Positions 25,125 through 55,673 of a stretch of DNA of 64,000 bases are shown in pieces. Position 1 is the first letter of the stretch. Every line of letters begins with the position of its first letter. Origin of the DNA: a virus. Where the stretch lies: the IMG/VR virus record IMGVR_UViG_3300032322_002570, positions 1-64,000 of that record. One strand, 5' to 3'. Both the position numbers and the translations under genes were made by a program. The notes below the pieces were generated by a model. That model was not told the origin of the DNA. It ran no database searches and saw only the letters and a list, made by a program, of their open reading frames with translations.

Positions 25125-25341
25125 CGTTTTTTGGCTTGGGCTTTTTCTTGCCCGGAGACCGGAGATGCACCATCTTACCATTCACGAACGCGAGGCAGTC
25201 GTAGATCGCCTCCTCGAACTCGTACAGGGTGTCCATCAGCGCCTCGGCGCTCTCGAACCGCATCTCCACGATGTCCTGTCCACAGGACTCGCAGAAGTCG
25301 ACGCCGCGACCCGGCTTGAACTCGATCCGCGCGATGATCAC
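25108..25341 (-). CDS. Hypothetical protein with CESC motif, 77 aa
   Basis: IIARIEFKPGRGVDFCESCG, ESAEALMDTLYEFEEAIYDC and a Lys/Pro tail. Coupled by ATGA to the portal gene upstream. Possibly metal-binding through CESC. Confidence 0.6.
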   Translation of the reverse strand: MIIARIEFKPGRGVDFCESCGQDIVEMRFESAEALMDTLYEFEEAIYDCLAFVNGKMVHLRSPGKKKPKPKNGASSQ

Positions 25342-26813
25342 GCCTGTTCCTCCTCGTCGCCGGCCTGAGGGTCGGCTTCAGCGCCGGGTGTAGCAGTTTC
25401 CGGCGGGGCCTGGACCTCCTCGTCTGCACGTTCCATCTCTTCGTCGACCTTCAGGTCGGGATCGAGCACACCGCCACGGATGAGTTCGTCGATCACGGTC
25501 CTGCGGCTCAAGACGCCAGACTTATGCAGATTCAGGAGTTGAGCCATGCCTGATGGGTCGAGCGGCCGGTTGATCAGTGACTCGTTGATGGCAATCCCTG
25601 ATTCCTGGACGATGGAGTTCATCTCACCGGCGTATTTAGCCCAAAGTACCATCACCCTTCGGAATGCAGCGGCCTTGTTCCGCGTCAGGCTCGAGACCTG
25701 ACTCGAGACCTGGCTTGAGCGGAGTGATGCTTCTGTGGCGGTCTTCGAGTTCGTGCCGTACAGGAAGTTCAGGCTGGAGCGATCCATCAGGTCCTCCAGG
25801 TGAGAGATCTCCTGCTGGTGGCGCTGCAGGCTGCTGCCGGTCGGCTCGGCAAACTTGAAATCCCCCGTCTCCGGCAGATCAACGCCAGTATTTGAGCCCA
25901 GCATCAGGCGGCTTGGCTTGCCAGTCGTCGCGTTGACAGGAGCGCCCTTGCGGACCGGCACAGGCATAGCGCACTTGTGCAGGAGCTCTACCAGGTCGGA
26001 GCGCATTTGGAAGTGCTGGATCGAGAGCTCCGCCAGGCCACCCATCGGGACACCGCCCTGCCCGAACCGCGACGTCGCGCTGCCATACCAGACGATCGGC
26101 ACCTCATCGATCGAGGTCTTGACGGACTGCCCCTTCTTGTTCCGCCAGGTGCCGTCAACGAACTCAAGACGGTACTCGGTCGTGATACCTGGTTTCATCA
26201 GGTAGTAGACCGGTTCGAGGTCCACGCCAAACTGGCCGGCCTTCGGGGGCTTGGCCTTGATCTGCCGGATCACAGCAAAATCAAGAATCTCTCGACCATC
26301 CTTGTACGTGGTCGACCAATTGATCAGGTCCCGGCGCTGGACCTGAATAAGGTAAGGCGAGCGTCCGTCACGCGACTCATCGCGGTAGTTGTTCGCGCCA
26401 CTACTGGGGAGCATGTCCACCACAGTGTAAACACCACCGTCGCGAAGGGCAAGTTCGTCGCCGTGGTTCCAGAAACTGTAGATGCTGGACCCTTGGCGAT
26501 CAACGTCGAATTCTGCCTGTACCAGACTGGGAGGTGGAAACGCTAACTGGAATCGCCCCAGAAGCCCCGCGTAACCCCTGATGGCATCTCTGAAGATGGG
26601 GGTGTAGGTTGCACGCTCAAGCCTCGGCAGGTACTCGTCCTGGTACTCGCCGGGGTCTTTCGGCAGGTACTTAGACTTCTCTTTTCCACGGCCGGAGGTG
26701 CTCAGTAGGTTCCAGCAGTCGAGGGTGAGCTCAAGCTCCGGCAGGATCTGCCTGAGTTCGGGTCTATGGTACGAGACTAACCCAGGGTCGTCCTGCGGGT
26801 GCTCGATTTTCAT
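25338..26813 (-). CDS. Portal protein, DUF4055-like, 491 aa
   Basis: Resembles the DUF4055 portal family: FRDAIRGYAGLLGRFQLAFP near residue 75, ALRDGGVYTVVDMLP, IDEVPIVWYGSATSRFGQGG, PMGGLAELSIQHFQMRSDLV and a long C-terminal helical wing (SSQVSSQVSSLTRNKAAAFR). The portal forms the dodecameric DNA gate at one capsid vertex and meets the terminase. It lies 8 kb from the terminase, with nucleotide-metabolism and primase genes between, an unusual order. Acidic low-complexity C-terminus. Confidence 0.75.
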   Translation of the reverse strand: MKIEHPQDDPGLVSYHRPELRQILPELELTLDCWNLLSTSGRGKEKSKYLPKDPGEYQDEYLPRLERATYTPIFRDAIRGYAGLLGRFQLAFPPPSLVQAEFDVDRQGSSIYSFWNHGDELALRDGGVYTVVDMLPSSGANNYRDESRDGRSPYLIQVQRRDLINWSTTYKDGREILDFAVIRQIKAKPPKAGQFGVDLEPVYYLMKPGITTEYRLEFVDGTWRNKKGQSVKTSIDEVPIVWYGSATSRFGQGGVPMGGLAELSIQHFQMRSDLVELLHKCAMPVPVRKGAPVNATTGKPSRLMLGSNTGVDLPETGDFKFAEPTGSSLQRHQQEISHLEDLMDRSSLNFLYGTNSKTATEASLRSSQVSSQVSSLTRNKAAAFRRVMVLWAKYAGEMNSIVQESGIAINESLINRPLDPSGMAQLLNLHKSGVLSRRTVIDELIRGGVLDPDLKVDEEMERADEEVQAPPETATPGAEADPQAGDEEEQA

Positions 26814-26853
26814 CGACTGGCTCTGCGGTCACCTAGTGTTCCGCCGCGCGTCA

Positions 26854-31778: not shown

Positions 31779-31825
31779 TGATAGGCAAAGCAAGAGTTAG
31801 TCTTCCGCTTTCGCGGGCGTCGATT

Positions 31826-32259: not shown

Positions 32260-32287
32260 GGCCGACAGGCGTGTCCGTAGGATGCCG

Positions 32288-33865
32288 CTACAGTAGCGCA
32301 CCACCCAGGTCAGCAAGCTTCGTCGTGACGTACTCCACAGCGGCCGGCTCGGCACTAAGCGAGATCGTCGGCCTGACCAGTGGCCTGACGACCCTGCTGT
32401 AGCGCTGTTCGGAGACCGCCAGGATCGCCATCGCTTCACGGGGGCCGAACTCCGGCGAGAACTGCTCAAGATCCGACAGGCGGCGCCAGAACCAGACGTG
32501 CGCCGCACCAGCCAGAAAGCCCATCAGCGGGCGCAGCGTCTGCCTGAGGTGCGGGTAGTGGACGTACAGCCGCAGTGCTCGGCGTTCCACCTGGAACCTG
32601 ACCCACTGCGGATCGGGCCTGGACCAGGCCGCATAGTGCGAGATCGTCGGCAGCCCAGAGATCCACCCCTTGGCCAGGGACGAGGCCGCCTCAGGCGTGG
32701 CCGCCAGCACCGCCGAGGCCTTGTCGACGTAGTGCTGCCTGAGGGCGGGCGACCTGATGGACTCTACCAGGTTGCGAATTGCCGTCTCTGCTGCAGAGAA
32801 CTTCTTGGTGTCGGTCCTGTCAAGTCCGGCCAGCCAGGAGTCGATCTGCCAGTCGAGCCACGGCACCGCCGCCTCGATGATGCCGCCGAAGTCCATGCCA
32901 GCGTCGACGCAGTCAGCCGGATCCATCCCATCCGGGAGTTTGGCGATGCTGATGTTCGCTTCGCCCTTGCACGCGAACGGGCCGATCGCTGACACCGCCC
33001 GAGCAGTGGCGCTGGCGCCACCCTTATCGGCGTCCATGCAGAGCACGAAGTTCGAACACTTCAGCATGAGCCTCTTGACGGCGGCCTCGCTTGGTATCGC
33101 CGTGCCCTGCAGTGCAACGACATTGCAGTGCCCAGCGCACCACAGCCGAATCACGTCAAGCTGCCCTTCGACTATCACCATGAAGCCAGCGTCCCTGGCA
33201 GCCTCCCAGGCCCTATGCTCATTGAAGAAAAGGCTTGACTTCTTGAAGATCTCACTGTCTTTCGAGTTGATGTACTTCTCCTTGCCGGAGTAAAGCGGAT
33301 CGATGACACGCTTCGAAAACCCAACAATCCTGCCGGCGTGATCGTGGATCGGAATCGTGATTCTGCCACCGTCTGGGGCCCCGGCGTCCCATCCAAGCTC
33401 GAAGAATCGGCTGGCCTCTGCTGTCAGGCCGCGACCGAGTATCCAATCACGGGCCGATTCTCCAGTCCTGGAGCGAATTGCCTTCCGGTAGCGCTCATGC
33501 GCCCTGGTCAGCGACGAACGCTCTGACTCGATCCTGGCGCGACGTTGCCTCTGCGCCTCCTGGTCCTCGTCGTCCCTCAGGATCTCGACCGAGTGCTTCT
33601 CGGCGATGCGCTCGACAGCCTCTGCAAACGACAGTGAGAACTTCTGCTTCACGAAGTCGATCCCGTCCTTGCCACCGCCGCAGGCAAAGCAGAAGCAGAT
33701 TCCCTTGGCGTCGTTGATCGTCAGCGACGGGTTGGTGTCGTTGTGCCACGGGCACAAGGCGACCGCTTCACGGCCAACCTTCTTGAACGCGATCCCCTCC
33801 GACTCCAGGATCGCCGTGATCGGGACTGCCCTTACGGCCTCGATGGTGCCCTGTGAGATGCTCAA
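32288..33865 (-). CDS. DnaG-type DNA primase, 525 aa
   Basis: N-terminal CHC2 zinc finger (LCPWHNDTNPSLTIND ... FCFACGGGKDGIDFVKQ, from residue ~38) and a TOPRIM domain (GFMVIVEGQLDVIRLWCAGH near 230, then VLCMDADKGG). It makes RNA primers for phage DNA synthesis, working with the DnaB-like helicase at 58-60 kb. The C-terminal region is helical and differs from bacterial DnaG. Overlaps the sigma-factor stop by ATGA. Confidence 0.88.
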   Translation of the reverse strand: MSISQGTIEAVRAVPITAILESEGIAFKKVGREAVALCPWHNDTNPSLTINDAKGICFCFACGGGKDGIDFVKQKFSLSFAEAVERIAEKHSVEILRDDEDQEAQRQRRARIESERSSLTRAHERYRKAIRSRTGESARDWILGRGLTAEASRFFELGWDAGAPDGGRITIPIHDHAGRIVGFSKRVIDPLYSGKEKYINSKDSEIFKKSSLFFNEHRAWEAARDAGFMVIVEGQLDVIRLWCAGHCNVVALQGTAIPSEAAVKRLMLKCSNFVLCMDADKGGASATARAVSAIGPFACKGEANISIAKLPDGMDPADCVDAGMDFGGIIEAAVPWLDWQIDSWLAGLDRTDTKKFSAAETAIRNLVESIRSPALRQHYVDKASAVLAATPEAASSLAKGWISGLPTISHYAAWSRPDPQWVRFQVERRALRLYVHYPHLRQTLRPLMGFLAGAAHVWFWRRLSDLEQFSPEFGPREAMAILAVSEQRYSRVVRPLVRPTISLSAEPAAVEYVTTKLADLGGALL

Positions 33866-34506
33866 CGATTTTCGACGAACTTGCGGAAACGAACAGCGAG
33901 CGCCGACGGCGGGCGGCGCAGGCGACCCCGACTGTACTCCTCCAATTGCCGTCTGAGGACCGGTGGCATCGCCTCGATCAGCGCCTCAGCCTCTCGCTCG
34001 TAGGAGGATAGGTCAAAGGCCTCTTCGGCTTCTAGCGCCTTTCCTGGCAGCGAGTGGTCTTTCAGTTCCAGCGGTGGGCCAGAGCACGCAAGCATCACGT
34101 CCTGCCATTCTTCGGCGTCGATCTCGAGCTTAGCACAGATCTGCTCGTCCGTGGCACCCTCCAGGATCATTCTGCGCCCTTTGACCCAGAGCTCTCGCAT
34201 CCGGTGGGACAGGCGCATGGAGTAGGTGCGGTCCCTGATGTAGTGCAGGATCGCGCCGCGAATGTATGGAACAGCGAGCGACGAGAACCGCATCGTTCGG
34301 CCGGTGCGCACGCTGACCAGGCCGGCATCGTACTTGGCCGCCGCCTGGCATAGGCCCTCGAATGCAGCGCTCTGCAGGATCGAGAACTCGATGCCGGTCG
34401 ATCGCTGGTAGCGCCAGGCGATCTCCCGTGCCAGGTTGATGTTATCGGCAGCAAGCTTCTGCTGCTCGCGTGTCAGCCTGAAGTCTGGCTCTCTCTTTGC
34501 TGCCAA
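33862..34506 (-). CDS. RNA polymerase sigma factor (sigma-70 family), 214 aa
   Basis: Region 2 is visible: QKLAADNINLAREIAWRYQR, then GLCQAAAKYDAGLVSVRTGR and TMRFSSLAVPYIRGAILHYI, followed by RLSHRMREL and a degenerate region 3/4 with DEQICAKLEIDAEEWQ. Short, without region 1.1, like alternative or phage sigma factors. It would direct host RNA polymerase to phage promoters, most likely late ones, since it sits between the terminase and primase genes. The GGWAYACTA motif before plus-strand virion genes is a candidate target. Confidence 0.75.
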   Translation of the reverse strand: MAAKREPDFRLTREQQKLAADNINLAREIAWRYQRSTGIEFSILQSAAFEGLCQAAAKYDAGLVSVRTGRTMRFSSLAVPYIRGAILHYIRDRTYSMRLSHRMRELWVKGRRMILEGATDEQICAKLEIDAEEWQDVMLACSGPPLELKDHSLPGKALEAEEAFDLSSYEREAEALIEAMPPVLRRQLEEYSRGRLRRPPSALAVRFRKFVENR

Positions 34507-42855: not shown

Positions 42856-42864
42856 GGTATACTA
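42856..42864 (+). promoter_or_regulatory. Candidate late promoter GGTATACTA (1 of 6)
   Basis: 22 nt before the first gene of the plus-strand virion block, in the short divergent gap. Confidence 0.5.
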
Positions 42865-42885
42865 GAGTGTAGATCGACCCGTGCA

Positions 42886-43116
42886 ATGTCCGAAACCCTT
42901 GGTCAGATCGTTCGCGACATTCGCGATCAAATCAGTGGAACCGTCAGCAGCGGCGGAAACTCGATTCCCCCATGGGACTACCGCCAGTTCTCGTACTCCG
43001 GCGGCAACCTGACCACCGTGACCTACAAGAGCGGTGGCGCTGCGGGTGAGGTGGTTGCGGTGCAAACGCTTGCCTATGACGGAAGCGATAAGCTAATCAG
43101 CGAGACCTGGAGCTGA
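42886..43116 (+). CDS. Virion-associated small protein, 76 aa
   Basis: SETLGQIVRDIRDQISGTVS then SIPPWDYRQFSYSGGNLTTV and AVQTLAYDGSDKLISETWS. This beta C-terminus with a repeated-strand look is common in small tail-fibre-region proteins. First gene of the late block, start fixed by the promoter motif. Confidence 0.6.
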   Translation: MSETLGQIVRDIRDQISGTVSSGGNSIPPWDYRQFSYSGGNLTTVTYKSGGAAGEVVAVQTLAYDGSDKLISETWS

Positions 43117-43120
43117 TCTG

Positions 43121-43681
43121 ATGGCCTATCGATTTAACCCTTTTTCCGGCACGCTGGATCTCGTTGGCGAGGGAACGATTGAGTCGGGACTGCAGCCCGG
43201 AGACGAGCTTACGGAACTTGGCAGTGGTGATGCGGCACAGGGACAGGTGCCGGCAGCAGATGGAGAAGGCGGAATCACATGGGAAGATCCGCAGTCGGGC
43301 GGCGTCGTGCAGCGCAGCACCGCCTCCGTGACCCTGACGGCTTTGGCTGGCGGCGCCACTGGCACCGGCACAATCACGCTGCCGAGGGCCTGCACGATCC
43401 TGAGCATCGAGACAAACCGCGCCGGATGGGTGAGGCTCTATGACAGCGCAGCCGCAAGTGCCGCCGACGCGTCACGACTACGAACGGCCGATCCCGGTCC
43501 TGATGATGGCGTGATCGCTGAGGTCATCACTACTGGAGCGGCAACAGCGGTGCCGTCTAACAAGCCTATTGCTGCAAACGCTGAGACGACACCGACTACC
43601 TCCTACCCTGTCAGGGTCACGAATGACGGGGCCACTGGGGATTTCACCGTGACCATTACCCACATCCAAATCCAACCCTGA
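43121..43681 (+). CDS. Tail-fibre-like virion protein, 186 aa
   Basis: Starts YRFNPFSGTLDLVG, an opening seen in many phage fibre or baseplate-associated proteins. Then a Gly/Thr-rich linker and a beta domain (TLTALAGGATGTGTITLPRA, RVTNDGATGDFTVTITHIQI). Probably an adhesin or fibre adaptor; the host receptor is unknown. Confidence 0.65.
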   Translation: MAYRFNPFSGTLDLVGEGTIESGLQPGDELTELGSGDAAQGQVPAADGEGGITWEDPQSGGVVQRSTASVTLTALAGGATGTGTITLPRACTILSIETNRAGWVRLYDSAAASAADASRLRTADPGPDDGVIAEVITTGAATAVPSNKPIAANAETTPTTSYPVRVTNDGATGDFTVTITHIQIQP

Positions 43682-43683
43682 TC

Positions 43684-44673
43684 ATGGCCGTCACCAAGCA
43701 GACCTACACCGCTACCGCCACCTGGACCGCATCAGGGCTGGCAGACATATTCCGCTCGGCATTTATTGATGCTGGCCTGATGACCGAATGGCACGACGCC
43801 TTCCTGTCGGGCTCCATTGAGAACCGTGTCCTTGCCGTTGCATACAACGCAGCCAAGACGTATGGCACAACCTATTACTGGTTCCAGTTCACTACTGGCG
43901 GTGTGTTCTACAGCAACGCAAGCGGGTGGAACGCTGCCAGCGACATCCCCAGCGGGACGCAGTATCTGGACTTCTATGCCACTACGACCAACGCCACGAC
44001 AAACCACGTGCAGCTTCTTGCACTGGCCACAAACACGACCGTAACGCTGACCCGTTACACGTCGAGCAACATGACCTTTTTCCTGTTGCGGAGCGGTTCC
44101 AATAGCTTGCCGTTTTGCATTGACAGTCCTGGCGTCACTTTTCAGTCGTGGGCTGACCTTGACAGGGGCTATCACAACGGTCTTCTAAGAGTGTCCACAG
44201 AGCTAGCAACCACGACAGCGGGCGTTCGATTTTCAACGCTTTTCAGATGCAGAAGGGCCTTCCTGGATGGATGCGTGAACTATGGTAGCACTCTTGTAAA
44301 CAACAACTACAACGACGAAATTCCAATCAGCAAATTTGCTTTCTTTGGCGCAGTTTCAAACAGCCCTAACAACGTTTTTGGCGCATCTTCTCCAGAATCG
44401 GGATTGGCGCTCCCATACGCGACAACCGCTGGGAACCCGGCATTTGCTGCCGGGTTCTCTCCTGTTTATACGGGACTCCAGCTTCAATCGGTTCTTTCTA
44501 GCACGATGCCAGACGACTTTGGGATCTTCGCTTCCAGGGCTGTCAACACCTGGTCGGTTCAGGACACACTGACCGTTACCGCTGGCGTCGAAGAGTATGA
44601 GGTTCTTTCCCGAGCCAACGGCGCTGGCGTTGCCGGGCAACCTTCTGCACTCGTGCTTGCGAGGACCGTCTGA
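43684..44673 (+). CDS. Virion structural protein, 329 aa
   Basis: Beta-rich, Thr/Ser/Asn-rich protein (KQTYTATATWTASGLADIFR, YGTTYYWFQFTTGGVFYSNA) without a signal peptide, placed among fibre genes. Ends in an ATG overlap with the next gene. Likely a tail or surface protein; the exact role cannot be read. Confidence 0.6.
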   Translation: MAVTKQTYTATATWTASGLADIFRSAFIDAGLMTEWHDAFLSGSIENRVLAVAYNAAKTYGTTYYWFQFTTGGVFYSNASGWNAASDIPSGTQYLDFYATTTNATTNHVQLLALATNTTVTLTRYTSSNMTFFLLRSGSNSLPFCIDSPGVTFQSWADLDRGYHNGLLRVSTELATTTAGVRFSTLFRCRRAFLDGCVNYGSTLVNNNYNDEIPISKFAFFGAVSNSPNNVFGASSPESGLALPYATTAGNPAFAAGFSPVYTGLQLQSVLSSTMPDDFGIFASRAVNTWSVQDTLTVTAGVEEYEVLSRANGAGVAGQPSALVLARTV

Positions 44674-44867
44674 TGCCTGAATCCATTACACCAGCAGCAG
44701 GAATCAGCACCAGACCCGCTGCGACTGAAACCCTGTCAAGTTTTGCTCCCGACCTTGGTGGCACTGAGCAGCTTGACCGAGTTGCGTTCGATGCCCCATC
44801 CGGGCCCGGCCCCGAGCCGACTCGCCCTGCTGCAGGTTGGATATTCCCGAGAGGCTTATCTCTCTAG
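44673..44867 (+). CDS. Small virion-region protein, 64 aa
   Basis: SITPAAGISTRPAATETLSS then Pro/Gly-rich sequence (SGPGPEPTRPAAGW). Probably disordered. Coupled to the gene before it. Confidence 0.5.
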   Translation: MPESITPAAGISTRPAATETLSSFAPDLGGTEQLDRVAFDAPSGPGPEPTRPAAGWIFPRGLSL

Positions 44868-44901
44868 TTGCCGCACTCGTTCTGTTTCCTGACTCATTCC
44901 A

Positions 44902-47900
44902 ATGGCTTCCGATCTGATCCAGTTCATTCAGTCAAGCCTCTCTGAGGCGCAGGCAACAGAGGCTACGCTCGCCGCCCGCATTGCTGATCTCGACGCAGCA
45001 AACACCGAAATCGCGGAACTCGAGGCCGAGCTTGCGGCGGCCCAAGAACGCATCAGGGAGCTTGAAGCCCTCCAGAACAAAGTCCCCGTAGGCGGTGCTG
45101 ACACGCTGGCCGCTACTCAGGATACCCGGGTCACTTACTCAGCGGCTCAGCTACTCGCAAACGACAGTGACGCTGATCCCGGCGATGTGCTCAGGATCGC
45201 CAGCGTTGCCAGCGGCACTGGTGGAGCAGTGGTGCTCAATGCGGACGGTACCGTTACGTTTACGCCCGCTGCTGGCTTTAGTGGCGCCGCAAGTTTCGTC
45301 TACACCGTCACCGATGGGAAAGCGGCTTCCGCCTCTGTCAGCGTGACCGTGAACGTTGCCCCTGCTACCCCGCCAACTGCCAGACAGACCATTCTCACCA
45401 CCCAAGTTCCGGTTGACCTGAATCGCAGTGATAACCAACCGTGGGAGGTTGGTGTTCGATTCACAACTGCTGTTGATGGTCTGATTACCGCAATTCGTTT
45501 CTTCAAGAGCGCTGGTGAAACCGGCACTCGCACCGGCAAGTTGTGGACTGACAGTGCGCAGCTTGGATCTGTTGCATTTGCCAACGAAACTGCATCTGGC
45601 TGGCAGGAGCAGGCGTTTTCGACTCCAATCCAGGTTCGTGCAGGGACTGTCTACACGGCAAGCGTAAACATCAACCGTTTCTACACGGCGACCAACAACG
45701 GATTTGCTTCCGCAATCACAAACGGAAGCTTGACGGCTCCTGTCCAGGCCGGTCGTTACGGCGGCACTGTAAACGCTCGTCCGAACGCCATCTTTGCCAA
45801 TCAGAACTACTTTGTCGATGTGGTGTTCGTTGCGCAAGAGCAGCCAACAACAGCACTGGATTTTTCAATTCAGGGCGAAGCCGATGCGGCGCAGTTTCTG
45901 CGCACCGCCACCATGGGGCCAACGCTAAGCGAAATCACTACGCTGGCAGCGTCCAACAACGCAGAAAGCTGGTTCGATGCTCAGGTTGCAGCCAGTTATG
46001 ACGGCAGCCAATTTGCCGAATGGACACCGGGCGCCAGTGGCAAGTTCACCAGGAAACCGGGCTGGATCGCTCAGGTCAACTCATGGATGACGCTTCCCCG
46101 TGGCGAAGCGTTCTCAAACGAGGGCATCGACTCTGGCGAGGGTCACGCCGACAGACCGCAGCGGCAATGGTATAACTATCGAATGATTGACACGGGCTTA
46201 CTTTACAACAACCCGCCTGTTGGTGGATTGTGCAACCCAACAAGTGCTGCTGCTCCCAGGGCGCCGCAGAAATCGCTGATGCTGCGGCTGTCGTGGATTA
46301 TGTCGAAGTTCATTGTGACTTCAATTCCTGGCGGAGGTGTAGAGCGGACTAGGTATGACGGTCCAGCCTGGTACGAACTGATCTCCCGCCACGTATTCGG
46401 CAACTACGCCGACTTCCTGGAAGAAGTAACGTACTCTTTCCCAATGGCCAAAATGTTGACCCATTACGCAAATGCGCGTGGGCCGCAGGCCGATCAAAAC
46501 TTCGCGCGAGAAATCGTGCAACTAATGACCATGGGCATTTGGTCGCTCAACGACGGCGGTGTGCCGTTGCTCGATCAGAGCGGTCAGCGAGTGCCCAATT
46601 ATGTCAACCAGGATATTGTTGAGCTTTCCAAGGTCTACACCGGACTGGTGCATCCGTGGTTGCTGAATGAGCAGGTTTACTACCAGGATCCAGCTCCTGA
46701 GATTTTCCGTGCCGGCTTCTCGCTGACCACGGATCAAAGATGGATTAGGGATCATTTCGGTGCACACTTTAGAGGTGTTTCTGGCAACGACCGCGTTAGC
46801 CGCTCAAACGAGATTGACGTTCGATTCACTAACTACGGCTATCGCAAGCCCCTCAGCCGTGTTGAAGCGGGCAAACGGTATCGGATTGCCAGCGTCAGCA
46901 ATGGCGCTGCGTTCGCGTCCATAGGTGCCGACAGCACTCCGGCTGTCGGAGAGGTGTTTCTGGCAACGGCTGATGGCACGTCCGCCATGGTCAGCGCGGG
47001 GCTTGTCGAAGAGCAGCACATCAGCTTCGCCGGCTCCTATCCGCGCCTTAAAATCTCTGCAGGACTGCATGATTTTGGTGCGGTTTCAATCCCGCGATTC
47101 AACATCAACATCCCTGCTGGCACTGATCCAGAGACTGAAATCCGCCTGGTCACGAAAGCGCTGGTCAACCATCCCAGCACTGCACCCTATGTCTGCACAC
47201 GGCTGATTCGTTTCGCTACTACAGCCAATCCATCACCGGGCTACGTGTCTCGGGTTGTTCGGGTGTTCCGCGACAACGTAGACAACCCGCAGCAAATGGC
47301 CGCTGTGTGGAAAGCAATTCTGTTTGATCCAGAAGTGAGAACAGGCACCCGCACCAATGCTGCCAATTTTGGCAGGCTGCGTGATCCGTATGAACTGTTT
47401 ACCGGCCTGATTCGCCCGCTCGGATTTACGTCTCATCATACCAGCGACCGAAACGAAGTTGCCTGCTTCTACCGTGGGCCCGGAAATCAAAATGGGATGG
47501 CCCCTGCTGTTGCTCCTAGTAACAAGCAGGCTGGATTCCTATTTGTTACGGAGCGGGATGATGATGACTGGGACGCTCAGGTGTTGCTCGGTGTTTATCC
47601 CACCAGGGCGCCATCAATTTTTGGACACTACCCGCCTGACGGGACAATGCCAGGGGACACTGAAATCCTGTCTCCAGAATCAATCCTTTATACGCCTGGC
47701 CGCCTAAGTAGCGTCAGCAGAGTGCTGGAGCGGCTGATCAGCTTCGGGCCAAACGCATACCGCACGATTAACCGATCTGCGGTTGACCAGCCGATTTTGG
47801 TTGGCAGCTTGGCTCCAATCACGTATGACTGGTTGCCGACCAGTACACCGGCGGCTCTGGTAAACAGGCTTGATCTGCTGCTGACCGGCGGGCGTACACC

Positions 47901-48012
47901 CGCTAATCGGCAACAGGAAATTATCACGGCAATCACGCCTTTAAGCGGTGAAAACCGTGTCGGCTTGGTCGCACAGACCCTGATCAATTCCCCAGACTTC
48001 TATCGCCAGTGA
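44902..48012 (+). CDS. DUF1800-family multidomain virion protein, 1036 aa
   Basis: Domain order: coiled coil (residues 1-60, heptads in IAELEAELAAAQERIRELEA), a cadherin/VCBS-like beta domain (60-152, ANDSDADPGDVLRIASV, FTPAAGFSGAASF), a DUF4082-like domain (~165-312), then DUF1800 (from ~320) with its hallmark NFAREIVQLMTMGIWSL near 534. A fibre-type module (GKRYRIASVSNGAAFASIGA) is inserted near residues 650-700. No signal peptide. DUF1800 proteins are normally exported bacterial proteins encoded beside DUF1501, as here. In this setting it looks like a host gene recruited as a tail or surface protein. Confidence 0.75.
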   Translation: MASDLIQFIQSSLSEAQATEATLAARIADLDAANTEIAELEAELAAAQERIRELEALQNKVPVGGADTLAATQDTRVTYSAAQLLANDSDADPGDVLRIASVASGTGGAVVLNADGTVTFTPAAGFSGAASFVYTVTDGKAASASVSVTVNVAPATPPTARQTILTTQVPVDLNRSDNQPWEVGVRFTTAVDGLITAIRFFKSAGETGTRTGKLWTDSAQLGSVAFANETASGWQEQAFSTPIQVRAGTVYTASVNINRFYTATNNGFASAITNGSLTAPVQAGRYGGTVNARPNAIFANQNYFVDVVFVAQEQPTTALDFSIQGEADAAQFLRTATMGPTLSEITTLAASNNAESWFDAQVAASYDGSQFAEWTPGASGKFTRKPGWIAQVNSWMTLPRGEAFSNEGIDSGEGHADRPQRQWYNYRMIDTGLLYNNPPVGGLCNPTSAAAPRAPQKSLMLRLSWIMSKFIVTSIPGGGVERTRYDGPAWYELISRHVFGNYADFLEEVTYSFPMAKMLTHYANARGPQADQNFAREIVQLMTMGIWSLNDGGVPLLDQSGQRVPNYVNQDIVELSKVYTGLVHPWLLNEQVYYQDPAPEIFRAGFSLTTDQRWIRDHFGAHFRGVSGNDRVSRSNEIDVRFTNYGYRKPLSRVEAGKRYRIASVSNGAAFASIGADSTPAVGEVFLATADGTSAMVSAGLVEEQHISFAGSYPRLKISAGLHDFGAVSIPRFNINIPAGTDPETEIRLVTKALVNHPSTAPYVCTRLIRFATTANPSPGYVSRVVRVFRDNVDNPQQMAAVWKAILFDPEVRTGTRTNAANFGRLRDPYELFTGLIRPLGFTSHHTSDRNEVACFYRGPGNQNGMAPAVAPSNKQAGFLFVTERDDDDWDAQVLLGVYPTRAPSIFGHYPPDGTMPGDTEILSPESILYTPGRLSSVSRVLERLISFGPNAYRTINRSAVDQPILVGSLAPITYDWLPTSTPAALVNRLDLLLTGGRTPANRQQEIITAITPLSGENRVGLVAQTLINSPDFYRQ

Positions 48013-49349
48013 TTGCCATGACTTTCTCACCTGAACTCAAGGCGTCTCTGGCGCCACTCCGCCCAAGTGACTTTAAGGTTATCATCTGCTTCTTTGCCTT
48101 TGGTGGCCGCGATTCGCACAATGAGTTAGTCCCACGTAGCGGGAACAATCTGAGCCGGTACAATGAAGCCCGCCCCGGTGGCTTGCGCATTGAGCAATCG
48201 GAACTGCTTTCTCTGAATGGAAATAGCGCATGGGGATTGCACCCAAATATGGGCTATTTCCGAGATCAGTGGAACGCAAACAGATTGGCTGTGCTGCGTC
48301 ATGTAGGCATCCTGAACGAACCCGCCACCAGGACGCAACTACGTGAACAGCCGAGCCGGTACGAACCGCAGTTTCTTGGAGCGCATGACGCGCAGTGGGA
48401 GCAGTGGCAGGACGGCCTGGAGTTTCGCTCAGTAGCTCGGACTACTGGCTGGATGGGGCGACTCGCTTCGCTCCTTGAGGGAGTCTGGAACGTGCCAACT
48501 GCAGCAGCAGACAACGATCTGATGCTGAGCTGTGTATCCATCGGTGGCCTCAGTCGGCAACAAAGGGCATTTCCGCCTGACGGCTCTGTAGCGCTGCCAG
48601 TGGAAGCCAGGCCCGGAGCATTTGGGTATGGCTCCAGCCAGGCAACTCGCCTGCGAGAGCTTTTCACCGAGGCCGAAGGTGCTGGGCTGCCTGCTGCTGT
48701 TGACGCCAACCGCATTAGGCAGGGCTGGAAGCGTCAGGCACAAAAAAACCTAGCGGCTCCTGGGTTTATTCAAGGCCAGCTTCGCGCATTGCCCCAAGCT
48801 GTATCTGATGCTCTGGCCCCTGCGCCGCAGCTCCGCCCGATAGCCCAGGCGATCTACACAGCCCAACAGAATCAGGCACTTGGCATCAGGCGACTAGTCG
48901 CTTTTGTGCCAATCGGCGGCTGGGATCACCATGCAAACCTGCGGCCTCAGCATGATCCGCTGATTCTCGGCCTCAACAATTCTATGGCAGCGATGGCAGC
49001 GGCCATCAACGCCATGGGGCTTACGAACAGCGCGGTGCTTTGCACACAGAGCGAATTTGGCCGCACATTCCGTGGCAACAGCAACGCAGGTACAGACCAC
49101 GCATGGGCGGGCCATCAGTTTGTGATGGGCGGGCCAGTCATTGGAGGCATGTATGGCCCTGAGCCGAATTACGCCCCTACCGGCGAACACGTTGCTGACG
49201 ACAGCGGCAACATTTTTATTCCGCAGATCAGCACGGATCAGTATTACGCTACGCTGCTGCGGTGGTTCGGCTTACCAGTGGATGCCATCAACGCTGTGCT
49301 GCCAGGGGCTTCGCGGTTTACACCCCAAACCCTGAACTTTGTGCCTTAG
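48009..49349 (+). CDS. DUF1501-family protein, 446 aa
   Basis: Alkaline-phosphatase/sulfatase-like superfamily: FKVIICFFAFGGRDSHNELV at the N-terminus, FVPIGGWDHHANLRPQHDPL near 300, CTQSEFGRTFRGNSNAGTDH and HAWAGHQFVMGGPVIGG near 345-380, all metal-site type motifs. Bacterial members carry a Tat signal; this one does not. Its GTG start overlaps the DUF1800 stop by 4 nt. Activity of the family is unproven; hydrolysis of a sulfate or phosphate ester on the host surface is a guess. Confidence 0.8.
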   Translation: MIAMTFSPELKASLAPLRPSDFKVIICFFAFGGRDSHNELVPRSGNNLSRYNEARPGGLRIEQSELLSLNGNSAWGLHPNMGYFRDQWNANRLAVLRHVGILNEPATRTQLREQPSRYEPQFLGAHDAQWEQWQDGLEFRSVARTTGWMGRLASLLEGVWNVPTAAADNDLMLSCVSIGGLSRQQRAFPPDGSVALPVEARPGAFGYGSSQATRLRELFTEAEGAGLPAAVDANRIRQGWKRQAQKNLAAPGFIQGQLRALPQAVSDALAPAPQLRPIAQAIYTAQQNQALGIRRLVAFVPIGGWDHHANLRPQHDPLILGLNNSMAAMAAAINAMGLTNSAVLCTQSEFGRTFRGNSNAGTDHAWAGHQFVMGGPVIGGMYGPEPNYAPTGEHVADDSGNIFIPQISTDQYYATLLRWFGLPVDAINAVLPGASRFTPQTLNFVP

Positions 49350-49439
49350 CGAACCGACGACCTGACCTGTCATGGTACGGCTGCGTCCGAGCCGCCTGCC
49401 AGCGGCTCCCAATAAAAGACCGGCACGCGCCCGTGACTC

Positions 49440-49448
49440 GGAATAATA
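49440..49448 (+). promoter_or_regulatory. Candidate late promoter GGAATAATA (2 of 6)
   Basis: 56 nt before the next virion gene, just after the DUF1501 gene. The weakest match of the set. A hairpin GAGCCGC-CTGCCA-GCGGCTC at 49389-49408 precedes it. Confidence 0.4.
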
Positions 49449-49503
49449 TAGTGATGGGGCCTAACCTCTACGAGGCACATCGTCGTTCTCCGCTACTACT
49501 CCA

Positions 49504-49896
49504 ATGACTGCTCGCTCTACTTATCCGATTCGCGAGGGCTTTCATCTCGACGCGAACTCCCAGATCACCACTCAAGCCAAGGACCTGGGCTACGACCTGG
49601 GCACCGTTGGCACCATCCGCCTGATCGTGCTCGACGCCACTGTGGTGGCCCCTACCGGCAATGGCACCGGAGCCAGTATCCAACTGCAGGATGCCGATGA
49701 TTCCAACGCGGTGTTCTTCACCATCACGCAGGCCGACCTGGCCAATGCTGATGCCAACGGCGTCTACATCGACCACCTCCGTGGCGCCAAATTTGATGGC
49801 ATCCGGAATGTGAGGATGGCCTATGTCGCTGGGTCCGCCGGTACCGGCACTGCTGGCGCCATCACCGGCTTCAGCGTCTACCTTGATCGCGTCTGA
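49504..49896 (+). CDS. Virion protein, 130 aa
   Basis: STYPIREGFHLDANSQITTQ, IRLIVLDATVVAPTGNGTGA and a beta-rich rest. The layout resembles small capsid-decoration or fibre-associated proteins, but no family is certain. Followed by a hairpin terminator. Confidence 0.55.
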   Translation: MTARSTYPIREGFHLDANSQITTQAKDLGYDLGTVGTIRLIVLDATVVAPTGNGTGASIQLQDADDSNAVFFTITQADLANADANGVYIDHLRGAKFDGIRNVRMAYVAGSAGTGTAGAITGFSVYLDRV

Positions 49897-49915
49897 TCGC
49901 TAAAGGCGCACACTG

Positions 49916-49940
49916 GCCCGCCTAAACAGCGGGCTTCTGT
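49916..49940 (+). terminator. Hairpin terminator
   Basis: GCCCGC-CTAAACA-GCGGGC followed by TTCTGT. The stem is strong but the U-run short, so it may be partial. It separates two virion genes and directly precedes a late promoter. Confidence 0.5.
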
Positions 49941-49943
49941 GTA

Positions 49944-49952
49944 GGTATACTA
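49944..49952 (+). promoter_or_regulatory. Candidate late promoter GGTATACTA (3 of 6)
   Basis: Identical to copy 1, 23 nt before the next start. Confidence 0.5.
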
Positions 49953-49974
49953 CCCCAGAACATATCCAGTCGAC

Positions 49975-50583
49975 ATGCACATCTACGGCGCACCGGTCTA
50001 CTACCGTAAAGAACTCGAAGACGGCAGAGTCCTTCGCCGTCGGGTGTTCTACCTGCAGGAAGCATCAGAGCTGGAAGGCCTCGGTTGGGAGCGTGGGAAC
50101 AAGCCCAAAGAGGAAGAGAGCGATACCCAGACCGAGCCCCAAGAGCAGGAAGAGCCCGATCCCGCGCCCAGCCCCGAACCAGCCGCCGAAGAGGTACTGG
50201 TGCCAGGGGTTGAAGACGACACCTTTGAAGCCGACGAGCAGATCGAAGAAAAGCAGCCGACCGAACTCGAGTTCATGAGCAAGGCTGAGCTGATTGAATA
50301 CGGCCGGAAGATCGGTGCTCCGGTCAGCGCATCGATGAACAAGCAGGCAATCGTGGATACGCTGAAGAAAGCCGAACCGCGCTTCCTGTATCCCGATAAA
50401 TGGGCGCCGCCCAAGAAGGCAAAGCGCTTTGACCGCATCACCGCCCCAGACGGCTCCGAATGGATCTTCGATCAGCCGCGCCTCGAGGATGGTCGCTACG
50501 AGCACGACGATCCGACGACCCCTGAGTTCGAGTCTGCGCTGACCTGGATGCCGTTCGAGGAAGTCGATGGAAGTGACGTATAG
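49975..50583 (+). CDS. Acidic virion-region protein with SAP-like segment, 202 aa
   Basis: N-terminal HIYGAPVYYRKELEDGRVLR, an acidic Glu/Pro/Gln linker (about residues 40-95), then a helix pair FMSKAELIEYGRKIGAPVSA, MNKQAIVDTLKKAEP like SAP or HeH domains, and a charged end. Possibly a capsid- or DNA-associated protein. Confidence 0.6.
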   Translation: MHIYGAPVYYRKELEDGRVLRRRVFYLQEASELEGLGWERGNKPKEEESDTQTEPQEQEEPDPAPSPEPAAEEVLVPGVEDDTFEADEQIEEKQPTELEFMSKAELIEYGRKIGAPVSASMNKQAIVDTLKKAEPRFLYPDKWAPPKKAKRFDRITAPDGSEWIFDQPRLEDGRYEHDDPTTPEFESALTWMPFEEVDGSDV

Positions 50584-50749
50584 CCAAGGGCCCCGGATCC
50601 TGGATGACGGAACAAACCTGGACCGGGACATTCTGGCAAGCCACCCAAGGACCAGCAGACGTCAGATCTCTGATCCTGTCTCCGACGGGTCGCTTGGAGA
50701 GCCCGGCTACGAACCTGGGCAGAAGAATCTCGATGGTTCCCTTCTCTAG
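50567..50749 (+). CDS. Small virion-region protein, 60 aa
   Basis: EVTYSQGPRILDDGTNLDRD, ILASHPRTSRRQISDPVSDG: polar and probably disordered. The ATG overlaps the preceding stop by 17 nt. It ends inside the next hairpin and promoter. Confidence 0.4.
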   Translation: MEVTYSQGPRILDDGTNLDRDILASHPRTSRRQISDPVSDGSLGEPGYEPGQKNLDGSLL

Positions 50750-50758
50750 GGAACACTA
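50750..50758 (+). promoter_or_regulatory. Candidate late promoter GGAACACTA (4 of 6)
   Basis: 21 nt before the next gene; overlaps a hairpin GTTCCC-TTCTCTA-GGGAAC. Confidence 0.45.
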
Positions 50759-50778
50759 AACGGTAAAGAGGACGCGCA

Positions 50779-51117
50779 GTGGCTGCCACCATTTCACACA
50801 AACGAGGTGATACGTTCGAGTGGTATCTTGAGCTACCAGCCGACGAGTACGAGGATGGGTACTTTGTGGGCTGGACAGTCGCATCGCAGATCCGCAACAC
50901 GAAAGGAAGGCTTGTAGCGGAACTTAGCACGTCCTGGGGTACCCCAGCGGAGAATACTCGAGTGCTTAGGCTGTTCGCCGCCGATACGGCCGGATGGCCG
51001 CTTGGTGACCACGAGGCAGATGTCCAGTTCACACGTGAATCCGACGGATTTATTAAGTCGACTGAAACGTTCATAGTCTCCGTCGGGAAGGACGTAACCA
51101 TTACCGAAAATGGCTGA
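50779..51117 (+). CDS. Virion protein, 112 aa, GTG start
   Basis: AATISHKRGDTFEWYLELPA, TVASQIRNTKGRLVAELSTS, then a beta end. AGAGGA lies at good spacing before the GTG. It has the look of a small tail or fibre adaptor beta domain. Confidence 0.6.
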   Translation: MAATISHKRGDTFEWYLELPADEYEDGYFVGWTVASQIRNTKGRLVAELSTSWGTPAENTRVLRLFAADTAGWPLGDHEADVQFTRESDGFIKSTETFIVSVGKDVTITENG

Positions 51118-51313
51118 CAATCCAATACCGATTCGATTTGTCTCGTCAGGGCAGCCGATTCCGATCGAGATAAGCCCGTCAAGTGGAACCATCGAGCCAA
51201 CTGCGGCGATGACAAGCGCGGTTAAAGGGGAGAGAGGGGACCCTGGCATACATATCGGGCCAGAGCCACCCGAGAACACCTCCATCCTGTGGCTTGATAC
51301 TGGATCAACATAG
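51110..51313 (+). CDS. Collagen-like fibre tail protein, 67 aa
   Basis: PIEISPSSGTIEPTAAMTSA followed by one short collagen-like GERGDPG segment and PEPPENTSILWLDTGS, the end pattern of many phage fibre tails. 8-nt overlap with the gene before. Confidence 0.6.
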   Translation: MADNPIPIRFVSSGQPIPIEISPSSGTIEPTAAMTSAVKGERGDPGIHIGPEPPENTSILWLDTGST

Positions 51314-51341
51314 ACAAGTTGCCTCTGTAGCCAGGGTGAGC

Positions 51342-51350
51342 GGAATACTA
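51342..51350 (+). promoter_or_regulatory. Candidate late promoter GGAATACTA (5 of 6)
   Basis: 33 nt before the next virion gene. Confidence 0.5.
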
Positions 51351-51382
51351 AGAAGGCACCCGGCTTTGCTGCATCCTGACAC

Positions 51383-51802
51383 ATGGCTTCCCATCTACAG
51401 AACAACTTCATCGCTGACCTGGCGGCCGGCAACCTGATTCCCGGAACTCACGAGTTCAGGATGACACTGCACACGTCGGCATACACGCCAAACAAGGACC
51501 ATAATCGGTTCGACGATGTGACCAACCAGGTAGCCAATGGCAACGGTTACACCACTGGCGGTGAAATTGTCACAATGACAATCACCACTGATAACGCCAA
51601 CGACCGAACCAGTATCAGCTTCTCTGAGCCTAGCTGGGCTTCGGCAAGCTTTACTGCTCGCTACGGCGTGGTGCGCAGGGCCAGGGGTGGCGCCGCGTCT
51701 GCCGACGAATTGATTGCGACGCTGGACTTCGGTCAAGATGTTACCGCAACCAATGGAACTTTTGCTACGGATGAGACTGCGCCATTCTACATCAATAACT
51801 GA
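51383..51802 (+). CDS. Virion structural protein, 139 aa
   Basis: ASHLQNNFIADLAAGNLIPG, EFRMTLHTSAYTPNKDHNRF, then a beta-rich Thr/Asn sequence. Type seen among small phage structural proteins of unknown location. Confidence 0.6.
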   Translation: MASHLQNNFIADLAAGNLIPGTHEFRMTLHTSAYTPNKDHNRFDDVTNQVANGNGYTTGGEIVTMTITTDNANDRTSISFSEPSWASASFTARYGVVRRARGGAASADELIATLDFGQDVTATNGTFATDETAPFYINN

Positions 51803-51804
51803 TA

Positions 51805-52632
51805 ATGGCGATCACAACCTTTGATCAGTACATCGGGGCCTACAAACAGCACATCCAGCTCGCCAAAACCAACACCGTGACGACGGTTGCGGGCCGGGAG
51901 TCTACACTGATTGACCGTGCCGGCTTTCCGGCTGCCGGGTCGTTGTCGCCGTCGCAGACAACCAACGGCGTTGTGCCAACTGATGCAACGACCGGGTTCC
52001 CCGCGATCCAGACGTTCCAGGGCAGCAACAAAGGTTATCTGAGCCGGGTGGAGGCTTACAGCAATGTGGCCTGCACACTGTTCCTGTTTGATCTGCTGTT
52101 CTGGGCTGGCGGCACGGTGATTCCCACGACGGGAACCACGACTGTCACCCTGTCGTCGCAGCCAGACTTTTCGGGCAGGCTGCCGCTTGATGGCGGTGGT
52201 GTCAACCCAGCATGGAATGAAACGGAGCTGTGGCTGCAGTCCAACGTTGCCTGGTCCAACCATGCTCACACGGCATCAGTTGACTACACCGATCAGGACA
52301 ACAATGCTGGAGCCAATACGGGCAACATCAGCACGCAGAACCGCGTTATCAACTCCATGATGCGGATGCCGTGGGCTTCTGGTGACTACGGCACCCGCAT
52401 GCTGGAAGGCTACAAGCTGAACGGCATTTCTTCTGCAGCGGGTCAAGTCACGGCAATGGTGCTGCGCCGGATTTGGGCAGGAAGGCTGCAGGCGAACCAG
52501 TACATGGTATTTGGCCCTGATCTGACCGGGATGCCGCAGGTATTCGATACCTCTGCATTGTTTGTCGCCTGCAACACTGATTCAACCACGTCACCTACAC
52601 CGACCCTGATCCTGGAGATCGCGGAGGGGTAA
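51805..52632 (+). CDS. Virion structural protein, 275 aa
   Basis: ITTFDQYIGAYKQHIQLAKT, FQGSNKGYLSRVEAYSNVAC, LFDLLFWAGGTVIPTTGTTT and a beta-rich C-terminus. A structural protein, perhaps of the tail or capsid surface, by position. Confidence 0.55.
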   Translation: MAITTFDQYIGAYKQHIQLAKTNTVTTVAGRESTLIDRAGFPAAGSLSPSQTTNGVVPTDATTGFPAIQTFQGSNKGYLSRVEAYSNVACTLFLFDLLFWAGGTVIPTTGTTTVTLSSQPDFSGRLPLDGGGVNPAWNETELWLQSNVAWSNHAHTASVDYTDQDNNAGANTGNISTQNRVINSMMRMPWASGDYGTRMLEGYKLNGISSAAGQVTAMVLRRIWAGRLQANQYMVFGPDLTGMPQVFDTSALFVACNTDSTTSPTPTLILEIAEG

Positions 52633-52635
52633 GCC

Positions 52636-54732
52636 ATGGCCCTACGGGCGCGGCGTGGCATCCTCACCCGATCCAATCGGCGCAACTTTGCTGCGACCAC
52701 TGCGCCGGTTCGCCCTGGCGCCTGGAGTGATGTAGCTGAATCGCTGTTTGGGCGCATTGATGCGCTTGACGGCAGCGTAGTTGCGCAGTATTCCGGTGCT
52801 ACGGCCTCCACGACCGTCGGAAGCGTGAGTGCGGCCGGGGCCGGTACGGCGGGGTATTCAGTCGCATCCTCATCGACAACGCAAGGCCAATGGACAGCCA
52901 GTAGTGCTGTCAATGCCACTGGAGATTATGTCGGTGGCACCGCAGCAACGACGGCGTCCTCTTGGGCGGCCTTGGCCAGCGCAACAGCAGCCCACGCCGG
53001 GCCAGGCACTAGCGTTGCTGCGGCCATCAACGCGGCGACTGGCACCGCATCCGCGAGCTGGACTAGCGCGGCGACGGCAACAACGGCGGCAGGATGGACC
53101 GGATCGGCATCGGCCTCCGGCGACTATCTGGGCCCTGGTACAACGACGGCGCATGGTACTCACGCCGCTACGGGCGCGGCGACGGCAGGCCACATAGGTT
53201 CCGTCAACACCACGACGGCCGGCTCTTACTTGGGAGACGGAGCGGCCACTGCTCGGTACGACGGCTCCCAGGGCGAAGCGGTCGGCGGAACGTGGTCCGT
53301 CATCTTAAGCGGTACTGGCGGATACGAGGGCGCGAGCAATGCGGCAACCGCTGCATCTAACACAGCTACTGGCACTGCGGGTTCGCAACATACTGGCTCG
53401 ACATGCGAAACCGCACCAGGGACTAACACAGCAAGCGGCGGCGCTATCGCTGACTACACTGGCGCGGTTGTCGAAACGACGACAGGAACATACGCAGCCG
53501 CTGGTGGAACAGGGAACACTGGCGTCTATTCAGGCGGGGACACGGCGGCTCAGGATGCAGTATGGGAAGCCAGCGCTACTGCCGTCGGAAGCCACGGGGG
53601 TACATCAAGCAATACATCGAGCTGCGAATACGAGGCCAACGGCTCTGCGCTGGCAGTCTGCACAGGAGTAGCAGGTGGAACAGAGCAGGCCGAGTGGGTC
53701 ACGCGTGGCGATTGCCTGTCGGCGTGGGGCGGGGAGTCGGGTGCAATCACCGTCGGCGAATGGGTCGCCAATGGTGGTACTGGCTCCACGGGTGAATACG
53801 GAGGCACTGCTGGCACGGTAGTCGCCGGCTCCACGCAGGCATCCGGATCCGCATTGGCGCCGAGCCCTGGCAGCGAAGCCGACACTGGCAGTGGCGCATG
53901 GCAGGCCTCTGTATCGGTCTCAGCGGCATACCTGCCAATCGATTTGAACGTCAATGCCGCAGAGTGGAATAGCGCAGGGGCTGGGATAGCTGAGTACAGC
54001 GCTACTGGAGATGCCAGTGTCGCCCAAGCGAGTTGGACTGCTGGCGTGTCCTCCAACGCTGGATACGCGGGCGGGAGTACCACAACTTCGAGCGGCACGT
54101 GGAGCGTTGCCGGCGGCGCGTCGTCGTCCTTCAGTGGCACAGAGGCAGATACCACTCAGGCTAATTGGACGGCCGTGTCCACGAGTAACGGTCTTGGCGA
54201 ATACGTCGGCCCAGGAACTGCTGCATCAGCAGGGCAATGGTCGGCCATAGGAGGGGCGACGTCTAGTTCTGCCGGCTCGGAGACGACACCGATCGCGGCG
54301 GTATGGGGAGGGGCCGGAAGCGCTGCGCCGTCGTGGGCAGGGGATCAGGCTGCAATAGTCGGCGGCCAATACGCGGGACGGGTGCATCAACTAGCGATAT
54401 GGACTGGCTACCAGTCTTCGCCGGGAAGCGCCGCGTGGGCGGCTCACGGCAGTGCAGTCGCTACTCACAGTGGTGCAAACAGGTCGACCGAGTATGCCGT
54501 ATGGATTGCGGAATGCGATGCCATCGCAGCATTCGGTGGTGATACAGCCCTCGTGTGGCCGGCAGAATGGGTCTCGACGGCGACAGGTAGCACAATACTG
54601 TACTGGTACGACAGTAATCTGGACGAATGGAGGCCGGGATCTCTGATGAGATGGAGTACGGCGAGGGGCGCGTGGGAGAACGCCGAATGTCGCGCATTCT
54701 CTGGTGGTGAGTGGCGTTCTGTTAGCGGCTGA
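52636..54732 (+). CDS. Fibre-like protein built of ~26 repeats of 22 residues, 698 aa
   Basis: After an N-terminal arm (TRSNRRNFAATTAPVRPGAW, ~70 residues) the chain is an array of about 26 units of ~22 residues with consensus T-x2-G-x-W-x-A-x-G-x-A-x-A-x-Y-x-G. Gly, Ala, Thr and Ser dominate; Trp/Tyr recur each unit (for example GEWVANGGTGSTGEYGG). The DNA period is 66 bp. The alternating pattern suggests a beta-solenoid fibre. The C-terminus (ILYWYDSNLDEWRPGSLMRW) is different and may be the capping or receptor-binding end. Confidence 0.7.
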   Translation: MALRARRGILTRSNRRNFAATTAPVRPGAWSDVAESLFGRIDALDGSVVAQYSGATASTTVGSVSAAGAGTAGYSVASSSTTQGQWTASSAVNATGDYVGGTAATTASSWAALASATAAHAGPGTSVAAAINAATGTASASWTSAATATTAAGWTGSASASGDYLGPGTTTAHGTHAATGAATAGHIGSVNTTTAGSYLGDGAATARYDGSQGEAVGGTWSVILSGTGGYEGASNAATAASNTATGTAGSQHTGSTCETAPGTNTASGGAIADYTGAVVETTTGTYAAAGGTGNTGVYSGGDTAAQDAVWEASATAVGSHGGTSSNTSSCEYEANGSALAVCTGVAGGTEQAEWVTRGDCLSAWGGESGAITVGEWVANGGTGSTGEYGGTAGTVVAGSTQASGSALAPSPGSEADTGSGAWQASVSVSAAYLPIDLNVNAAEWNSAGAGIAEYSATGDASVAQASWTAGVSSNAGYAGGSTTTSSGTWSVAGGASSSFSGTEADTTQANWTAVSTSNGLGEYVGPGTAASAGQWSAIGGATSSSAGSETTPIAAVWGGAGSAAPSWAGDQAAIVGGQYAGRVHQLAIWTGYQSSPGSAAWAAHGSAVATHSGANRSTEYAVWIAECDAIAAFGGDTALVWPAEWVSTATGSTILYWYDSNLDEWRPGSLMRWSTARGAWENAECRAFSGGEWRSVSG

Positions 54733-54743
54733 ACTCGGTAAAA

Positions 54744-54752
54744 GGAATACTA
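54744..54752 (+). promoter_or_regulatory. Candidate late promoter GGAATACTA (6 of 6)
   Basis: 18 nt before the next start, after the repeat gene. Confidence 0.5.
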
Positions 54753-54769
54753 TGTAAAACACTCCGTCA

Positions 54770-55597: not shown

Positions 55598-55673
55598 CCT
55601 GTTCGCGCCAAGGGGTACAAGCCTATCTTACCACACTGATGCGGAAGACTAAGGAGTCCCCGCCAGGCCAGGC

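Follow-up and report, generated by a model that had tools for sequence, protein, structure and literature searches.

The window analysed here comprises the initial 64,000 bases (64 kb) of the 73,855-bp virus record IMGVR_UViG_3300032322_002570 and holds a portal gene, a large terminase gene adjoined by a gene for a SigF-type sigma factor, a ribonucleotide reductase gene, a plus-strand block of late genes and an endolysin gene. Several of these genes are preceded by a nine-base motif, GGWAYACTA, six copies of which had been taken, in an earlier reading made from the sequence alone (the sequence-only reading), to mark the starts of late transcription units; this motif and the sigma factor that may read it are the subject of the present work. 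The portal protein shares 59% identity with that of Synechococcus phage S-CBS2, followed by those of S-CRES1-3 and of Prochlorococcus phage P-SS2; the record is a relative of P-SS2 and of the Synechococcus siphoviruses named here, S-CBS2 and S-CRES1-3. Its terminase, ribonucleotide reductase, primase, helicase, capsid, scaffold and endolysin, as well as two sigma factors, have counterparts in S-CBS2 and S-CRES1/3. The five phages compared below are the window's record, S-CBS2, S-CRES3, S-CRES1 and P-SS2. Genes in the window's record were called with a codon-usage script, while those of the relatives were used as annotated in their own records.

Exact matches to GGWAYACTA number six in the window against 0.35 expected, and none of 100 shuffles contained at least six. 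The whole record has eight, all of them intergenic and all within 150 nucleotides (nt) upstream of a gene. Five of the six copies named by the sequence-only reading are exact, but the one at 49440, GGAATAATA, is mismatched at the motif's fixed C; variants of its type (GGnAnnATA) are slightly enriched, with 4 of 71 located 15-26 nt before start codons and 0.6 expected. The proposed distance of 18-56 nt before genes agrees with the spacing that we measured from motif end to start codon (Table 1). The intergenic placement was likewise borne out. The supposed restriction to the plus-strand block, on the other hand, was wrong, because exact minus-strand copies precede the portal, major capsid and scaffold genes; the motif therefore tracks late genes on either strand. 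The copies had also been described as lying often just after a hairpin, whereas a hairpin is clear at only one of the six listed sites, that at 49944 (-20.8 kcal/mol, against a median of -10.3 and a 10% point of -15.3 kcal/mol for random 45-mers of the record).

A wider motif core and the genes that carry it

Scanning of the relatives revealed that GGWAYACTA is one corner of a broader core, GGnAnnCTA. A motif search across relatives had been suggested as a check, and the motif does recur among them, but the exact form is too narrow to serve as a group-wide consensus: few of 53 portal-gene relatives hold it and the examined part of P-SS2 has none, while the wider motif is present both in P-SS2 and in capsid loci. 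GGnAnnCTA occurs 28 times in the window's record, 43 times in S-CBS2, 37 times in S-CRES3, 35 times in S-CRES1 and 22 times in P-SS2, and 14, 25, 25, 23 and 16 of these occurrences, respectively, are intergenic copies located no more than 150 nt upstream of a gene. Control patterns of matching composition, reversed or permuted, gave 0-5 upstream matches per phage. In a blind enumeration of patterns with six of nine positions fixed, GGnAnnCTA ranked first in four of the five phages and second in the window's record, with log10 p values of -14 to -36. Of the 165 occurrences in the five phages, 80 are placed 15-26 nt ahead of a start codon, where chance would put about 1.4. This positioning drops to near background with most single changes at the fixed positions; the exceptions are the change of the last A to G (14 of 237 against 2.0 expected) and some weaker cases.

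The same pattern was observed in uncultured relatives. Every one of 52 capsid-gene contig loci of at least 9 kb (out of 79) carries at least one copy, and 346 of their 473 matches are intergenic and 258 fall within 100 nt upstream of a gene, whereas control patterns yielded 4-10 such upstream matches in these loci. Motif counts were strongly one-stranded in all 16 related whole records, and those of the reversed control much less so. The motif is conserved and is not a product of chance; it is wider than GGWAYACTA and it occurs on both strands. Equal frequency inside genes and on the other strand had been named as grounds for abandoning the promoter proposal. Copies in fact lie mainly just upstream of genes, and the minus-strand copies, which do exist, likewise stand immediately before genes. 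No published description of the motif was found in searches of open-licence PubMed Central (PMC) papers, among which the S-CBS2 and S-CRES genome papers were not included.

Analysis of gene function demonstrated a strong preference for late genes. In the four annotated phages, where late and early genes were picked from annotation words and ribonucleotide reductase was left out, the motif lies within 150 nt upstream of 35 of 69 virion, packaging or lysis genes and of 5 of 60 genes for replication, regulation or metabolism (Fisher p 1.2e-7). This preference, together with the position of the motif, supports the claim that the copies mark starts of late transcription units. The early-gene exceptions include two HNH genes that lie next to near-overlapping divergent motif copies. 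Early-type genes of the window's record and S-CBS2 show a different class instead, the extended -10 pattern TGnTAnnnT, mostly at 20-60 nt before the gene; the late sites do not fit this sigma-70 pattern and show GG and CTA.

Ribonucleotide reductase genes bear the motif in the window's record, S-CBS2 and S-CRES3 (22 nt upstream in the latter two), and that of S-CBS2 additionally has TGCTATACT. The reductase gene of the window (27276-31778, minus strand) encodes 1500 amino acids (aa) compared with about 770 in relatives. Its length, its fragmented reductase matches and the helicase- and endonuclease-like matches added by PHROGs suggest an intein or similar insert.

Table 1 Motif copies and associated features in the virus record (distances run from motif end to start codon)
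Feature	Coordinates	Strand	Remarks
Putative late-promoter element GGTATACTA	42856..42864	+	Exact; 21 nt before gene 42886-43116 in the plus-strand late block; next gene 43121-43681 related to S-CBS2 structural protein gp031
Doubtful element GGAATAATA	49440..49448	+	One mismatch; 55 nt before gene 49504-49896
Putative late-promoter element GGTATACTA	49944..49952	+	Exact; 22 nt before gene 49975-50583; strong hairpin adjoining upstream; gene related to S-CBS2 32976-33323, which bears GGAAAGCTA 25 nt upstream
Putative late-promoter element GGAACACTA	50750..50758	+	Exact; 20 nt before gene 50779-51117 (GTG start)
Putative late-promoter element GGAATACTA	51342..51350	+	Exact; 32 nt before gene 51383-51802 (phrog_644)
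Putative late-promoter element GGAATACTA	54744..54752	+	Exact; 17 nt before gene 54770-55075, product 79% identical to an S-CRES1 protein
Element GGAAGACTA	55643..55651	+	Fits GGnAnnCTA; 22 nt before gene 55674-55973, ahead of endolysin gene 56639-57709
Element GGTATGCTA	14001..14009	+	Fits GGnAnnCTA; 23 nt before isolated plus-strand gene 14033-14572; less certain
Putative late-promoter element GGAACACTA	26834..26842	-	Exact; 20 nt before portal gene
Element GGAAGACTA	31798..31806	-	Fits GGnAnnCTA; 19 nt before ribonucleotide reductase gene 31778-27276
Element GGCATCCTA	32278..32286	-	Fits GGnAnnCTA; 18 nt before small gene 32259-32083
Exact GGWAYACTA copy	71411..71419	-	Before major capsid gene; beyond the window
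Exact GGWAYACTA copy	72275..72283	-	Before scaffold gene; beyond the window
Portal gene	25338..26813	-	PHROGs match and identity to S-CBS2; motif copy upstream
SigF-type sigma factor gene (214 aa)	33862..34506	-	56% identity to S-CBS2 gp077; adjoins large terminase gene
TGnTAnnnT promoter-like sites (examples)	683(-), 4075(-), 18638(-), 39071(-), 41124(-), 61127(-), 63637(+)		Pattern match

Architecture of the motif sites

Alignment of 100 non-redundant isolate sites gave GG[ACT]An[AC]CTA[GA]. In keeping with the claim that no common -35 box is present, a -35 or upstream element was sought before the motif as single columns, as flexibly spaced 5-mers and as the words TAGGC and TTGAC, and none was found. 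No upstream column from -50 to -5 exceeded 0.12 bit in the isolate sites. The host-type word TAGGC occurred in the -32 region of 1 of 100 isolate and 1 of 161 contig sites, and TTGAC was present in 3 of the 100 isolate sites. The top 5-mers (ATCGG and ATAGG, at -4 to -2) overlap the start of the motif, often with a stop codon, and TTTTT at -13 is consistent with terminator tails. Matches to sigma-70-type promoters in 42001-57000 showed no excess either (6 versus 5.7 in shuffles).

The motif itself resembles an extended -10 element, as the sequence-only reading had proposed. Its invariant A and T lie four bases apart, a spacing that we take to be that of A-11 and T-7 of a -10 element and that would place the GG at about -14/-13, and the GG recalls the GGTAA of cyanobacterial SigF promoters. 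A pyrimidine-purine step follows. In the 161 non-redundant contig sites, which form an independent set, position 12 counted from the motif start is a pyrimidine in 65% and position 13 a purine in 84% (p 1.6e-17); in the 100 isolate sites, purines make up 72% at position 13 and 74% at position 14. This step falls where a transcription start would be expected for such an element. A promoter for a T7/SP6-like single-subunit polymerase was also considered from the ACTA ending and rejected, as the searched part of the proteome contained no such polymerase and sigma genes are present.

The SigF-type sigma factor and comparable systems

An alternative sigma factor had been postulated to read the motif, and the phage encodes a candidate, a SigF-type protein in which region 4 was not detectable by sequence. 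The best NCBIfam matches of the window's sigma are SigF and SigBFG (residues 13-142). Its alignment with the SigF model covers residues 16-142 and profile positions 30-156 of 258, and scores 70.5 bits against a cut-off of 261, so that a full-length SigF match above the NCBIfam cut-off was not reached. All 28 SigF-type homologues match the NCBIfam cyanobacterial SigF and SigBFG models. Pfam Sigma70_r2 is likewise matched by all 28 at E<=0.1, with a best value of 9e-10; the match of the window's protein has an E value of 0.0021 and stays below the curated cut-off. By these comparisons the window's sigma appears to retain regions 2-3 and not region 4. In Pfam searches, region 4 was matched by none of the 28 whole proteins (E<=0.1) and by none of 27 C-terminal parts, even at E<=5, and comparison with PDB sequences likewise gave no region 4. 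An AlphaFold2 model of this protein (mcd9ef41ab6d8; mean predicted local distance difference test score 81.5, predicted template modelling score 0.49) superposes at residues 10-94 on solved region 2 structures with a root-mean-square deviation (rmsd) of 1.3-1.9 A in the best alignments listed, while alignments of the whole model to full sigmas have an rmsd near 16-17 A. In S-CBS2, a second profile match (E 7e-12) was detected near record positions 57360-57580, where the C-terminal part of gp077 appears to continue in another frame; because of this match, the gp077 gene may contain a frameshift or a sequencing error.

Single-element late promoters have been described in other phages. In phiEco32, gp36 (phi32_gp36) is reported to lack region 4 homology and to direct transcription from a single element with the start site 6-8 bp downstream (PMC8948821). 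The middle and late promoters of that phage thus share with the present sites one element without -35 and a phage sigma without region 4 homology, but the reported consensus there is tAATGTAtA rather than GG[ACT]An[AC]CTA, the cyanophage sigma matches SigB/SigF/SigG and cyanobacterial SigF models, and the hosts and phages are of other kinds. Late genes of phage 7-11 are similarly described as being directed by a phage sigma, SaPh711_gp47 (PMC8948821). T4 gp55 is characterized as a small, diverged sigma-70-family protein that serves simple late promoters lacking a -35 element, with gp33 in place of sigma4 (PMC2988020). T4 differs in using an 8-bp TATA box, gp33 and the gp45 clamp, whereas the GG...CTA motif is not TATA-like and the cyanophage sigma retains a region-3 part; no search for gp33-like partners was made here. 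By analogy, the cyanophage system would work like phiEco32 gp36 and T4 gp55, but with another sigma lineage and another motif.

In sigma lineage the system resembles cyanobacterial SigF. Promoters of cyanobacterial SigF, a group 3 sigma, such as pilA1 of Synechocystis, are described as carrying TAGGC at -32 and GGTAA at -12 (PMC2758279). The GGTAA at -12 is compatible with motif positions 1 to 5, and a cyanobacterial SigF model is the best match of the phage protein; the -32 TAGGC and region 4 of the host system, however, were both undetected in the phage system. A homologue of the window's sigma, ORF003 of P-SS2, also lies beside terL and was noted as a group 3 sigma, for which the study postulated a regulon of its own (PMC2784084). 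The promoter account of that study lists BPROM sigma-70 promoters only and is not known to include a GGnAnnCTA motif (PMC2784084).

Weighing the readings

We regard GGnAnnCTA as a predicted late promoter with high confidence, and it is quite probable that the S-CBS2/P-SS2 group of cyanosiphoviruses uses single-element, -10-type late promoters that the phage SigF-type sigma reads. Granted the promoter role, the sigma assignment is somewhat less likely than that role itself; taken together, promoter function, late timing and reading by the SigF-type sigma are the most likely account of the motif. In this mechanism the phage sigma would act on host core RNA polymerase, with its retained regions 2 and 3 providing core binding and the reading of the -10 and extended -10 positions. 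We propose that the -35 element is missing because the phage sigma has no recognizable region 4, a loss that also predicts a motif keeping the GG-A and lacking the -32 part of SigF promoters. RNA would start about 5-6 bases past the motif, so that most leaders would measure roughly 10-20 nt, and many late genes on either strand would have their own copy squeezed between the preceding stop codon and the start codon.

A broader proposal is favoured with more reserve: that a SigF-derived sigma without region 4 reads the nine-base GG[ACT]An[AC]CTA throughout the group and gives very many late genes their own promoter with a leader of about 15 nt, and that this single-element design arose independently of T4 gp55 and phiEco32 gp36, possibly with a phage partner replacing region 4. 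Such a system would supply a regulon for the phage sigma noted in P-SS2 in 2009, apparently without target sites, and would offer a simple DNA rule to call late genes in a widespread and mostly uncultured cyanophage group. It would also provide, beside T4 gp55 and phiEco32 gp36, a clean case of promoter opening by a region-4-less sigma with cyanobacterial RNA polymerase.

Reading by the SigF-type sigma agrees with gene content. The SigF-type gene is present in all five motif-bearing phages and in all but one of 16 related records, the exception being a 46-kb record, and four cyanosiphoviruses with an RpoD-like sigma and without the SigF-type have 1, 1, 0 and 0 upstream motif copies. Several points weigh on the other side. 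The co-occurrence is a correlation and not proof, since the motif-positive phages are one related group, from which the four motif-negative phages, smaller in size and distant in relationship, are set apart by many genes other than sigF. The C-terminal helices of the sigma model may represent a degenerate region 4. Of the 69 annotated late genes, 34 have no motif copy of their own, although some of these stand in operons, and the major capsid genes of S-CBS2 and S-CRES1/3 lack a strict match within 150 nt. Terminator-like hairpins, moreover, do not single out the motif, because in the five phages they precede 24 of 93 regions with it (26%) and 40 of 203 others (20%).

The best-surviving alternative is a late promoter whose reader is a host sigma or the other, RpoD-like phage sigma (record positions 65658-66467, outside the window), possibly aided by a phage activator. 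All five motif-bearing phages do encode a second sigma, RpoD-like or group 2, and a SigF that recognizes a GGTAA element can also be present in the cyanobacterial hosts themselves (PMC2758279). We nevertheless consider this unlikely, given the scarcity of upstream copies in the four cyanosiphoviruses with only the RpoD-like sigma, the near absence of the host SigF's -32 TAGGC and the TGnTAnnnT class before early genes, which is better suited to an RpoD-like sigma.

An RNA-level role, in which the motif would signal translation initiation or RNA processing from a fixed distance before late start codons, is less probable still. The narrow spacing, which also counts against a promoter, would suit such a signal: at 63 of 103 sites the motif end is 19-24 nt from the start codon, and where genes are tightly packed the motif comes right after the preceding stop codon. 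However, at 27 of the 103 sites the distance exceeds 25 nt, with 119 nt before the capsid gene as one example, and both the spacing of A and T and the pyrimidine-purine step found 4-5 nt past the motif fit a -10 element and a start site. An RNA signal also explains poorly that some copies immediately follow terminators and that near-overlapping opposite copies stand between divergent genes (38448-/38456+ in S-CRES3, 38366-/38373+ in S-CRES1). A side effect of chance, codon usage or base composition, to which the modest excess of one-mismatch GGWAYACTA variants (26 with exact copies included, 15.9 expected) might point, is refuted by the control patterns and by the strand bias given above and has a negligible probability.

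The remaining features of the window lie apart from the motif. Its sole tRNA gene, a tRNA-Ile with anticodon TAT, is located at 37975-38047 on the minus strand, which also carries genes for a T4 RNA ligase 1-type protein (19876-21078) and a glycosyltransferase (15978-17615). An AT-rich stretch at 61220-61380, between divergent replication genes, contains repeated AACTACTACC-like words and is possibly an origin or early control region.

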